Origin: Mangrovibacterium lignilyticum | GTDB taxonomy: Bacteria; Bacteroidota; Bacteroidia; Bacteroidales; Prolixibacteraceae | Direction: 5' to 3' | Assembly (NCBI RefSeq): GCF_010882175.1 | Contig: NZ_WKLH01000002.1 | Coordinates: 372,001 to 436,000 of the forward strand | DNA length: 64,000 nucleotides | In this document: one piece after another, positions 26,506-29,276 of the stretch | Layout of the letters: every line of letters starts with the position of its first letter | How positions within the stretch are numbered: position 1 is the first letter of the stretch | Translations under genes and position numbers: made by a program | Notes under the pieces: generated by a model | Seen by the model: the letters and a program-made list of their open reading frames with translations, nothing else | Database searches by the model: none | Told to the model about the DNA's origin: nothing

Positions 26506-27510
26506 ATGAACCGCCTCCTTCGGATTCTTTTGGCAACACTTCTTTTCCTGTTATTTTTATATGTCGTTGGCCCGCAGTTTCCGGCTCCCGAATTGACAAA
26601 CGAATTACCCAAAGTTGAAGTTCAGCTTCGCAACCTCGACCAATACCTTGCTAAAAAGGAAAGCAAGCTCCCGGTTAAACCGGACAATCAAAGCGTGGTG
26701 GTTTGGGCTAACGACAGCCTCAAACAGCAAACCGAATGGTGTCTGCTTTATTTACACGGCTTCTCGGCATCGCGCATGGAAGGGTTCCCGACGCATGTCA
26801 ACTTCGCCGCTCATTTTGGGATGAATGCTTACCTGCCCCGCCTGGCATCGCACGGACTCGATGTTTCGGAACCGCTATTGGATATGACGCCGGACCGCCT
26901 GTACGAATCTGCGAAAGAAGCGCTTCAAATTGCCCATCTTTTAGGTAAAAAGGTGATCATCATGAGTACATCGACCGGAGGAACGCTTTCGCTAAAACTG
27001 GCGGCCGAATTTCCGGACCTCACCGATGCACTCATCCTGCTGTCTCCGAACGTGGCCATCAATAACAAAGCGGCATTTATGCTGTCGCAGCCCTGGGGCT
27101 TGCAAATTGCGCGACAGGTGTATGACGGGGATTACCGCTACGTCAACACAAATTTCGATGACGAAGAATGTGCCTACTGGAACTGTTTCTACCGGCTCGA
27201 AGCCGTTGTTTACCTCGAGCAGCTGGTCAATGCAACCATGGTACCCCGCACATTTAACCAGGTGAAAGCTCCGGTTTTTCTGGGCTATTATTATAAGGAT
27301 GAAGCGCACCAGGATGAGGTGGTTCGGGTTGATGCCGCCTTAAAAATGTTTGATGCGCTTGGAACGACAGCCGAACTGAAGCAAAAGCAAGCTTTCGATT
27401 CGGGGGTGCATGTAATTGGAAGCGGTATGTTCTCGACATGCCAGAATGAAGTGGAAAATGCAACCATTCGGTTTGCCGAAAAAACAATGGGCATTTCACC
27501 GCTCAAATAA
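26506..27510 (+). CDS. Alpha/beta hydrolase, membrane-anchored or secreted
   Basis: The product has 334 residues. The first 20 residues form a hydrophobic segment (LLRILLATLLFLLFLYVVG), a signal anchor or signal peptide. The core is an alpha/beta hydrolase with the oxyanion-region HG in LLYLHGFSASRMEGF, the nucleophile Ser156 in MSTSTGG (Ser replaces the usual first Gly of GxSxG), a probable acid in YYKDEAHQ and the catalytic His in SGVHVIGSG. The closest recalled group is the serine aminopeptidase S33/monoacylglycerol-lipase-like hydrolases. It lies 262 bp downstream of the acyl ligase fusion in the same direction, so a lipid-related role is plausible. The substrate is unknown. Confidence 0.85.
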   Translation: MNRLLRILLATLLFLLFLYVVGPQFPAPELTNELPKVEVQLRNLDQYLAKKESKLPVKPDNQSVVVWANDSLKQQTEWCLLYLHGFSASRMEGFPTHVNFAAHFGMNAYLPRLASHGLDVSEPLLDMTPDRLYESAKEALQIAHLLGKKVIIMSTSTGGTLSLKLAAEFPDLTDALILLSPNVAINNKAAFMLSQPWGLQIARQVYDGDYRYVNTNFDDEECAYWNCFYRLEAVVYLEQLVNATMVPRTFNQVKAPVFLGYYYKDEAHQDEVVRVDAALKMFDALGTTAELKQKQAFDSGVHVIGSGMFSTCQNEVENATIRFAEKTMGISPLK

Positions 27511-27640
27511 GCGAAGTCCCCGCCGATCGATTACCGGAACAAAGTCTTTGGGCACGCATTCGAACTGGTAGGTTGAAGCGCTGCAAGGGCAGTTGTGTGC
27601 TTTCAAAAAGAAAAAGGAGCAGAAACCCGGCGAAGATTCT

Positions 27641-27901
27641 GTCGAAAATTTCGAAACCGCCAAATTGGTTGTCGGGAGCTTGTCGAAATTTTCGACAGCG
27701 CCAAAAGTGTTCTCGCGGACCTGTCGAAAATTTCGACAGCAGGAAAAGAGTCCATTTGGCCTCTCCGAAAATTTCGACAGCATGAAAACAGTCCATTTGG
27801 CCTCTTCGAAATTTTCGACAGCATGAAAAGGGTCCTGTTGGCCCTTTCGAAAATTTCGACGGCACCAATTGGACCGAAATGGCCTTTTCGAAAATTTCGA
27901 C
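27641..27901. repeat. Array of seven palindromic cores at exact 41-bp spacing
   Basis: Seven copies of a 15-bp odd palindrome, consensus GTCGAAAWTTTCGAC, start at 27641, 27682, 27723, 27764, 27805, 27846 and 27887, every step being exactly 41 bp. The central 11 bases CGAAAWTTTCG are invariant in all seven. The centre is T in copies 2 and 5 and A in the rest. The first base is G in copies 1-3 and T in 4-7. The 26-bp spacers are related but diverged: most begin AGC and most end in GGCC plus two pyrimidines. It lies between the alpha/beta hydrolase stop and the rimO terminator. Forty-one base pairs is close to four helical turns, so all sites would face the same side of the DNA. Confidence 0.95.
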
Positions 27902-27932
27902 GACCAGAAGGCTGCTTGGCGCGCAGCAAATT

Positions 27933-27964
27933 AAAAAGGCCAACTCCCTTTTCGAAAGTTGGCC
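27933..27964 (-). terminator. Rho-independent terminator of rimO
   Basis: GGCCAACT (27938-27945) pairs with AGTTGGCC (27957-27964). On the minus strand five T follow (plus-strand A at 27933-27937). The loop contains TTCGAA, resembling a half-site of the adjacent array. The stem begins 14 bp past the rimO stop codon. Confidence 0.88.
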
Positions 27965-27977
27965 CTTGTTCTATTTT

Positions 27978-29276
27978 TTAGATTGAACCGAAAAGATCGA
28001 ATTCGGTCGCATCGTTTATTTTAATGTCGTATAACTGTCCGACCTGCATGCCCGCTGCTTTGTCGATGAGCACTTCGCAGTCAACCTCGGGCGAATCATA
28101 TTCTGTTCGTCCAACAAAGTATTCTTCCTCTTCCCGATCAACCAAAACCTGCAACGTTTTGCCAATTTGCTTTTGACTGAATTGAGCGGAAATACCCTGT
28201 TGCATGTCCATGAGTTCGGCAGCACGAGCTTCCTTCACTTCCTGCGGGATATCATCTTTATACATTTTGTAGGCATAGGTATCGTCCTCGCTTGAGTAAG
28301 CAAAAACGCCCATCCGCTCGAACGGATATTCCTGAACAAAGGCCTTCAATTCTTCAAAGTCTTCCTCTGTTTCGCCGGGGTGGCCAACCAGGAAAGTTGT
28401 ACGCAATGCAATTCCGGGAACGTCTTCGCGGATCTTGTTAACCAGCTTAATCGTTTCGTCTTTGGTAATTTTGCGACGCATAATTCCCAACATCCGATCG
28501 GTAATATGTTGCAATGGAATATCGAGGTAATTAGCCACATTCTTGCGTTCACGCATCACCTTCAACACCTCCATCGGAAATTTCGACGGGTAAGCGTAAT
28601 GCAAACGAATCCATTCCAAACCTTCAATGTCAGCCAGTTTGTCAATCAATTCAGCCAGTTTACTTTCGCCGTAACGATCAATTCCGTAATACGACAAGTC
28701 CTGCGCGATAACCAACAATTCCTTCACGCCGCCGGCAACCATTCCCTTCGCTTCTTCGACCAAACTCTCCATTTCACGCGATTTGTGATTCCCCGTAAAC
28801 TGTGGGATAGCACAGAAAGAACAGTGGCGATTGCAGCCTTCACTGATTTTCAAATATGAAAAATGTGCCGGAGTGGTTCTCACCCGGTGATACATTTTTT
28901 GCTCGTAGAAAGTAGCATTTAAATCCTTCACCACCTCTTTGAAATCGAACTTGCCGTAGAACTTATCTACTTCCGGAATTTCCTTGGTCAGATCTTCTTT
29001 GTAGCGAGCCGACAGGCAGCCCATCACCAACAATTTATCTAATTTGCCGGCTTTGCGCGCGTCCGCAAAATTAAGGATGGTATTTACCGACTCTTCTTTG
29101 GCGTCGGCAATAAAACCACAGGTATTTAGAATGACAATGTTTGCATCATCTTTGTCCGAATCATGCACGACCTGAAACCCGTTTAGGTCCAGCTGATTCA
29201 GCAACATTTCCGAATCAACCAGGTTTTTCGAACACCCCAGGGTCATGATATTAACTTTTCCTCTCTTCATATTCAT
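27978..29276 (-). CDS. rimO: Ribosomal protein S12 methylthiotransferase RimO
   Basis: This radical-SAM enzyme adds a methylthio group to the conserved aspartate of ribosomal protein S12. The product has 432 residues in three domains. The N-terminal UPF0004 domain has cysteines in TLGCSKNLVDSE, NTCGFI and MGCLSARY for one [4Fe-4S] cluster. The radical-SAM domain has CNRHCSFC (CxxxCxxC) and the C-terminal TRAM domain spans about 370-432. The start is ATG, three codons upstream of KRGKVNIMTLGC. It follows ftsY in the same direction with a 164-bp gap, matching the ftsY-rimO order usual in Bacteroidota. Confidence 0.97.
   Translation of the reverse strand: MNMKRGKVNIMTLGCSKNLVDSEMLLNQLDLNGFQVVHDSDKDDANIVILNTCGFIADAKEESVNTILNFADARKAGKLDKLLVMGCLSARYKEDLTKEIPEVDKFYGKFDFKEVVKDLNATFYEQKMYHRVRTTPAHFSYLKISEGCNRHCSFCAIPQFTGNHKSREMESLVEEAKGMVAGGVKELLVIAQDLSYYGIDRYGESKLAELIDKLADIEGLEWIRLHYAYPSKFPMEVLKVMRERKNVANYLDIPLQHITDRMLGIMRRKITKDETIKLVNKIREDVPGIALRTTFLVGHPGETEEDFEELKAFVQEYPFERMGVFAYSSEDDTYAYKMYKDDIPQEVKEARAAELMDMQQGISAQFSQKQIGKTLQVLVDREEEEYFVGRTEYDSPEVDCEVLIDKAAGMQVGQLYDIKINDATEFDLFGSI

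Follow-up and report, generated by a model that had tools for sequence, protein, structure and literature searches.

The window, i.e., the whole stretch of 64,000 nucleotides of the Mangrovibacterium lignilyticum genome that was analyzed, contains a gap of 467 bp between an alpha/beta hydrolase gene (26506 to 27510, plus strand; Abhydrolase_6, 28 bits, cut-off 26.3) and rimO (27978 to 29276, minus strand; TIGR01125, 473 bits, cut-off 357). The hydrolase gene converges on a tandem array (27641 to 27901, TRF period 41) that, like its cores, is assigned to neither strand. Seven exact CGAAAWTTTCG cores lie between 27643 and 27899, at 27643 to 27653, 27684 to 27694, 27725 to 27735, 27766 to 27776, 27807 to 27817, 27848 to 27858 and 27889 to 27899. 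All seven starts fit the exact 41-bp steps of the preliminary description, with 30 bp between adjacent 11-bp cores. Cores 1, 3, 4, 6 and 7 read CGAAAATTTCG, and cores 2 and 5 read CGAAATTTTCG. The 11-bp center, formerly taken as invariant, is so at all positions but the middle one (A in five copies, T in two). Similarly, of the seven 15-bp palindromes proposed, the complete form GTCGAAAWTTTCGAC is present in only two copies, at 27682 and 27723 (cores 2 and 3), the outer arm of the other five being short of one or both bases. Spacers from different units are related in sequence, with TRF matches of 75 to 81% among the repeats.

A terminator-like hairpin of 14 pairs (27935 to 27967, minus strand) is located between the array and rimO, on the strand of the latter and separate from the array. 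A weak site of the same kind, with five pairs (27580 to 27593, plus strand), is placed after the hydrolase stop and ahead of the array; it should be noted that these two sites are all that the terminator scan of the stretch recovered, against a mean of 1.5 in shuffled sequences. No sigma-70-like promoter was found in 27400 to 28100, by a scan that does not cover the promoters of Bacteroidota, and no Rfam model matched the window at its gathering score. The position beside rimO, noted in the preliminary description, looks incidental. When the regions downstream of the orthologous rimO genes were compared, no array was seen in any of three congeners: G001 has the same hydrolase-rimO pair (matched by eye) without it, and G002 and G003 have no AAAWTTT close to the end of rimO. 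A rimO-linked feature was therefore rejected.

Arrays across the source genome

The assembly (5.63 Mb, 16 contigs) contains four such arrays, at C9:399643 (the one in the window), C8:323706, C8:673659 and C8:1635667. The 13-mer TCGAAAWTTTCGA has 22 copies in the 5.63 Mb, all of them inside the four arrays, compared to one for the reversed control, and a two-core pattern gave 20 matches against none for its control. Both counts reject a chance origin of the cores, and the array is real. The four arrays have seven, six, six and six units at 41 bp, the last with five full cores and one that is one base off. Over these 25 units, nine of the 11 core positions are identical in 25/25 and the first one in 24/25, while identity at spacer positions goes down to 0.36, although a unit was admitted only if it deviated from AAAWTTT at no more than one position and had CG on one side or both, a criterion that favors the core. 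The middle base (A in 12 units, T in 13) fits a symmetric site. The arrays are still alike (71 to 79% identical to each other, cores included), so shared descent accounts for part of the regularity. In keeping with such symmetry, the array of the window also aligns to its own reverse strand, with 71% identity, and to those of the other arrays with 71 to 73%. At C8:673659, six units of this first type are followed by four units of another core in the same 41-bp phase (L026, 8908 to 9037; CTAAAATTTAACAG / GTTAAAATTTAACAG plus two decayed units). This in-phase junction of two core types indicates that the sequence changes and the register holds.

By a rough ORF rule, all four arrays are intergenic, apart from an overlap of 79 bp with one of the called ORFs; three are between convergent genes and one is in tandem orientation. 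The neighbors, called outside the window by this crude rule, code for the hydrolase and RimO, a glutamine amidotransferase-like and a DUF748 protein, and a CarboxypepD_reg protein and a 2-oxoacid oxidoreductase gamma-like one (the amidotransferase and gamma names being best matches below curated cut-offs). The two neighbors of the fourth array had no NCBIfam match. A plasmid or phage origin was also considered and rejected; with the sensitivity set for distant matches, searches of the plasmid and phage collections gave no match to the array, and in five viral contigs with two cores, the distance between neighboring cores was 21, 31, 33, 38, 40, 46, 145 or 263 bp and in no case 41.

Two further repeats of this genome deserve mention. 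One array (C8:545432 to 545639; L030, 7433 to 7640) has 42-bp steps and the core CAAATATTTTGCC / GAAAAATTGCC, in a gap flanked by two minus-strand ORFs. The other (C8:1261318 to 1261402; L031, 6319 to 6403) consists of AT-rich palindromic 22-bp repeats, TTTTAATACGTATTAAAATATT, directly upstream of an ORF that we take to resemble an HU-family DNA-binding protein of Bacteroidetes; conceivably, this is a self-regulated nucleoid protein.

Recurrence in relatives and in other bacteria

The phased palindromic architecture recurs in relatives. We searched 140 genomes of the family for three copies of GAAAWTTTC with both gaps free between 18 and 48 bases (steps of 27 to 57 bp). Nine genomes matched, with 46 matches (three in two genomes for the reversed control). 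Among the 43 of these 46 matches that were listed, all were 91 bp long, i.e., 41 + 41; 14 belong to the genome of the window, and without it, all 29 remaining matches, in eight genomes, keep the same 41 + 41. The steps of single-match arrays were inspected individually. The spacing rule of the preliminary description is thus exact in relatives, where the step was free to vary, and the further copies that it called for exist both in the source genome and in its relatives. Despite the 41-bp step, the spacers and the core flanks vary between species. The congener G001 has two types, TGAAAWTTTCA and AAAAAATTTT, the latter with steps of 40 to 42.

Looser patterns are less discriminating. An AAAWTTT scan of the 140 family genomes matched at least 92, no better than the control, and only evenly spaced series carry weight. 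Such series were found in G433, G437, G020, G445, G492 and G493, with steps of 40 to 42, among the matches listed in looser scans whose counts are not above controls; the follow-up covered 14 genomes mostly picked for high counts in the 140-genome scan, and only steps of 40 to 42 were permitted when walking from unit to unit. With the step fixed at 41 bp, 12/393 genomes matched against 10 for the reversed control, and several of these matches are AT-rich (two of the loci, L087 and L088, have TRF periods of 56 to 57). In the phylum sample, the triple GAAAWTTTC array was present in one of 395 genomes, the window's own (reversed control, one), and in none of the 389 genomes outside the order. Two side observations come from these surveys. 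In genome G354 (L090, 1352 to 1665), two arrays that differ in sequence directly adjoin each other, and TRF assigns a 41-bp period to each. In G028 (family f1), a dispersed element, AAATTTTCAGCATCCTAAAATATACCAACC...GATGATTAAAATTTTTGCG, is repeated on several contigs and is possibly an insertion-sequence end.

Contigs from 84,980 species were scanned for pairs of CGAAAWTTTCG at a free distance, which gave 49 loci. TRF reported a tandem repeat over the core in 15 of them, with a period of 41 in three, all from Bacteroidales MAGs: L053 with six units, a Tannerella MAG (L063) with five, and a Paludibacter MAG (L079) with five exact cores plus an altered one. The spacer GCATGAATCCGGATGATTTGGCCC of the Tannerella array is similar to GCATGAAAACAGTCCATTTGGCC in the window. 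Periods of 42 bp are found in Hymenobacter (L056, TGTCGAAATTTTCGACAG three times, 2.7 copies by TRF) and in a Prevotellaceae locus (L073, also 21). Elsewhere, the core appears with other periods, such as 52 bp in Cohnella xylanilytica, of the Paenibacillaceae (L039, core CGAAAATTTCGG), 51 in another Cohnella (L074), 52 in Actinopolyspora (L070, 2.3 copies), 51/25 in Patescibacteria (L042), 57 in Quinella (L034), and 45 and 20 in L040 (a Clostridia bin) and L061, respectively. In Rossellomorea aquimaris, one end of a 4.9-kb contig (L049, 1 to 356) consists of ca. nine repeats of 40 bp whose core is CGAAAATTTCG. One Bacteroidales bin has repeats of 39 bp (L054, 5462 to 5592) and 60 bp (L067, 124 to 251) with the CGAAAWTTTCG core; both lengths are multiples of three, and these repeats are perhaps inside reading frames. 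The 41-bp rule therefore holds strictly for the family matches and for three Bacteroidales loci besides, and is not general across bacteria.

Gene orientation bears on one explanation, transcriptional regulation, by which the cores would be multiple operators or the array a roadblock against read-through between convergent genes. Three of the four first-type arrays of the source genome do lie between convergent genes. However, when the rough ORF rule was applied to 24 arrays, both flanks could be called for 22, of which six were convergent, 13 tandem and three divergent (the Tannerella array, counted as convergent, appears tandem on re-reading). Together with the lack of a sigma-70-like promoter around the window array in a scan that leaves Bacteroidota promoters outside, this makes regulation very improbable.

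Conservation, symmetry and folding of the units

One array is common to three species of one genus (G509, G510 and G009), with six orthologous units. Differences in the cores were 0/66, 1/66 and 1/66 for the three pairs, against 11/153, 32/153 and 32/153 in the spacers (Fisher p of 0.037, 5.7e-5 and 5.7e-5, respectively). These pairs are not independent of one another, and the closest one alone gives p of 0.037. In the flanks, the same pairs differ at 19, 44 and 48 of 200 positions in the 200 bp upstream and at 29/299, 24/299 and 33/300 in the 300 bp downstream. Judging from these alignments, the spacers change at about the rate of the faster flank, with the cores held. The array at C8:673659 has an orthologue of three units in the congener G003, where the flanking genes are the same and a transposase gene has been inserted alongside. 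This case and the absence of a rimO array in congeners indicate that arrays are gained and lost at single sites. The transposase of G003 (L028, 1846 to 2334) is of the IS200/IS605 type (NF033573, 64 bits, cut-off 55), with CCCTTCGGG palindromes nearby.

The preliminary description had proposed that core and spacing are held and the spacers drift, and the exact step in relatives, the further copies and the conserved cores of the orthologous arrays all bear this out. On the same evidence, the decaying minisatellite that it offered as an alternative is unlikely. A related explanation comes second to a phased binding array: a non-functional satellite arising and spreading by slippage and copying, in which a mutational mechanism (e.g., hairpin-primed duplication) keeps the unit at 41 bp. 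This would fit the constant length with variable sequence, the several mutually similar arrays per genome, their patchy presence at orthologous sites, their placement between genes in mixed orientations, and the recurrence of this core elsewhere at other periods. However, orthologous cores conserved relative to their spacers, and an identical step where the spacers are no longer alike, would require selection or else a highly unusual mechanism, and we regard such a satellite as possible but rather unlikely.

AT content across 27 arrays (169 units) is symmetric, with peaks at the core (offset 0) and at offsets of ±14 to 16, and with GC-rich dips near ±4, ±10 and ±13; the peak at the core is built in, as these arrays were found through AAAWTTT. 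The set comprises neither the orthologous copy of G510 nor L173, the second series at L026, the two L090 arrays and the C8:545432 array. The bases flanking the core form different palindromes depending on the species: CTGTCG/CGACAG in the source genome, CTTCTG/CAGAAG and CTGTG/CACAG in G001, GTTCG/CGAAC in L053 and CTTTCG/CGAAAG in L063; in the G308 and G492 arrays, they are hardly palindromic. The consensus is symmetric at offsets 4 to 9 in 20, 19, 18, 12, 12 and 11 of the 27 arrays. Overall, flank complementarity was 92/162 against 69.4 ± 5.2 with mismatched array halves, a null that ignores the relatedness of the arrays, and none of 1,000 shuffles was as high. Inside units, covariation was absent (21 arrays, 130 units, gathered by steps of 40 to 42; offsets 1 to 21, z of -2.5 to 1.8). 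Flank symmetry thus covaries between arrays and not between units, as expected from independent half-sites for one dimeric protein per lineage. A hairpin selected in each unit was rejected, since it would require covariation within units.

A role as RNA was also weighed, in which a transcript through the array would fold into palindromic structures that act on its stability or termination, or that titrate a protein binding RNA. Both strands give much more stable folds than shuffled sequences (z of -7.5 and -8.3, 0/200 shuffles as low), and the 52-nt repeats of Bacillus coagulans are transcribed, according to the accessible text of PMC8625621. However, good folding is common to any palindromic repeat, the predicted fold pairs different units together, and the conserved AAAWTTT center would be a loop. 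The missing unit-level covariation, the lack of Rfam matches at gathering scores and the terminator-like sites that precede the array on both strands (two, where 1.5 are expected) also speak against this role, which we consider improbable.

A proposed phased binding array and its known counterparts

The array may well be a row of sites for a putative homodimeric DNA-binding protein with an architectural function. The binding-site array of the preliminary description is in this sense retained as the best reading of conservation and spacing, with the protein a putative one. Each 41-bp unit would bind one dimer, through a degenerate palindrome centered on AAAWTTT with specificity bases on either side and AT tracts ca. 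15 bp out on both sides of each center. With 41 bp (41/42 in some relatives), the step comes close to four turns of B-DNA, as already pointed out in that description, and would place the dimers on one face of the helix, where they could touch. Contacting dimers might then build a local nucleoprotein filament or a loop anchor at a small number of intergenic chromosomal sites. We infer the protein and its oligomerization, and expect the array to serve architecture or insulation and not to act as a promoter. Bait DNA for a protein search can be picked directly from the arrays, and if the protein is found, it would represent a new class of site-specific chromosome organizer in a phylum that is prominent among gut and marine bacteria.

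Several described systems invite comparison. CRISPR repeats are near-identical, 23 to 47 bp long and separated by unrelated spacers; here, in contrast, only 11 bp are conserved and the spacers are mutually related (75 to 81% TRF matches). REP/BIME elements are intergenic palindromic repeats, often near gene ends. REPs occur in high copies, by the accessible text of PMC3733652. Unlike them, the core 13-mer is confined to four arrays rather than dispersed. The parS of the F plasmid is one locus, adjacent to the par genes of that plasmid. Its sequence (sopC), with twelve 43-bp tandem repeats carrying ten 16-bp inverted repeats bound by ParB-F, has a layout very similar to that of the 41-bp arrays, as far as described in the accessible text of PMC6238139. 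However, the latter occupy four chromosomal gaps and have a different core, the plasmid collection gave no match, and the identified neighbors include no par gene, unlike the parA/parB genes that adjoin a ParB/parS-type centromere.

The closest counterparts are the constant-length, variable-sequence tandem repeats that Subirana and Messeguer reported in Bacillus and other Firmicutes and that they call enigmatic (PMC8161180, accessible text). With these and with parS at hand, it was too strong to say that no described element has this design. Resemblances to the accessible account of that class (mostly 4 to 10 copies) include four non-coding tandem arrays of at least four copies in the source genome, a length (41) that is not a multiple of three, one length common to several sequence families per genome, species-specific sequences, and short signals often with their reverse inside one repeat. 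Subirana and Messeguer propose a protein polymerizing on DNA, or small RNAs, so that the polymerizing-protein idea is the same as theirs and the credit belongs to them (PMC8161180, accessible text). The main text available of that paper does not contain "bacteroid," and the accessible text of their earlier survey (PMC6749651) has neither "bacteroid" nor "41 nt." In a literature search with thin coverage of subscription journals, we found no paper on a 41-bp Bacteroidota class; the J Bacteriol 2020 article of the same authors may overlap.

The unit lengths are different, 41 or 41/42 bp here versus the 52 and 20 to 21 nt published for Bacillus, where the few repeats of 40 to 41 are said to be related to those of 20 to 21; nor did we find in the accessible text an AAAWTTT palindrome or a core-versus-spacer test (PMC8161180). 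The 41-bp Bacteroidota form and its palindrome thus look new, as do the in-phase junction of two types and the comparison of core with spacer changes. By our inference, the published 20 to 21 and 52 would be about two and five helical turns. It is tempting, although doubtful, to see in steps of 21, 41 to 42 and 52 bp (ca. two, four and five turns) phased arrays in more than one phylum, on which fast-evolving dimers would form regular filaments at few chromosomal sites, i.e., a satellite-like chromatin element conserved in register and not in sequence. The Cohnella 52-bp array (L039), which carries a CGAAAWTTTCG-type core, provides a bridge between the 41 to 42 bp of Bacteroidota and the Bacillus-type lengths. 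In the arrays examined here, themselves repeats of fixed length and free sequence, the conserved core, the dyad and the helical phase are resolved.
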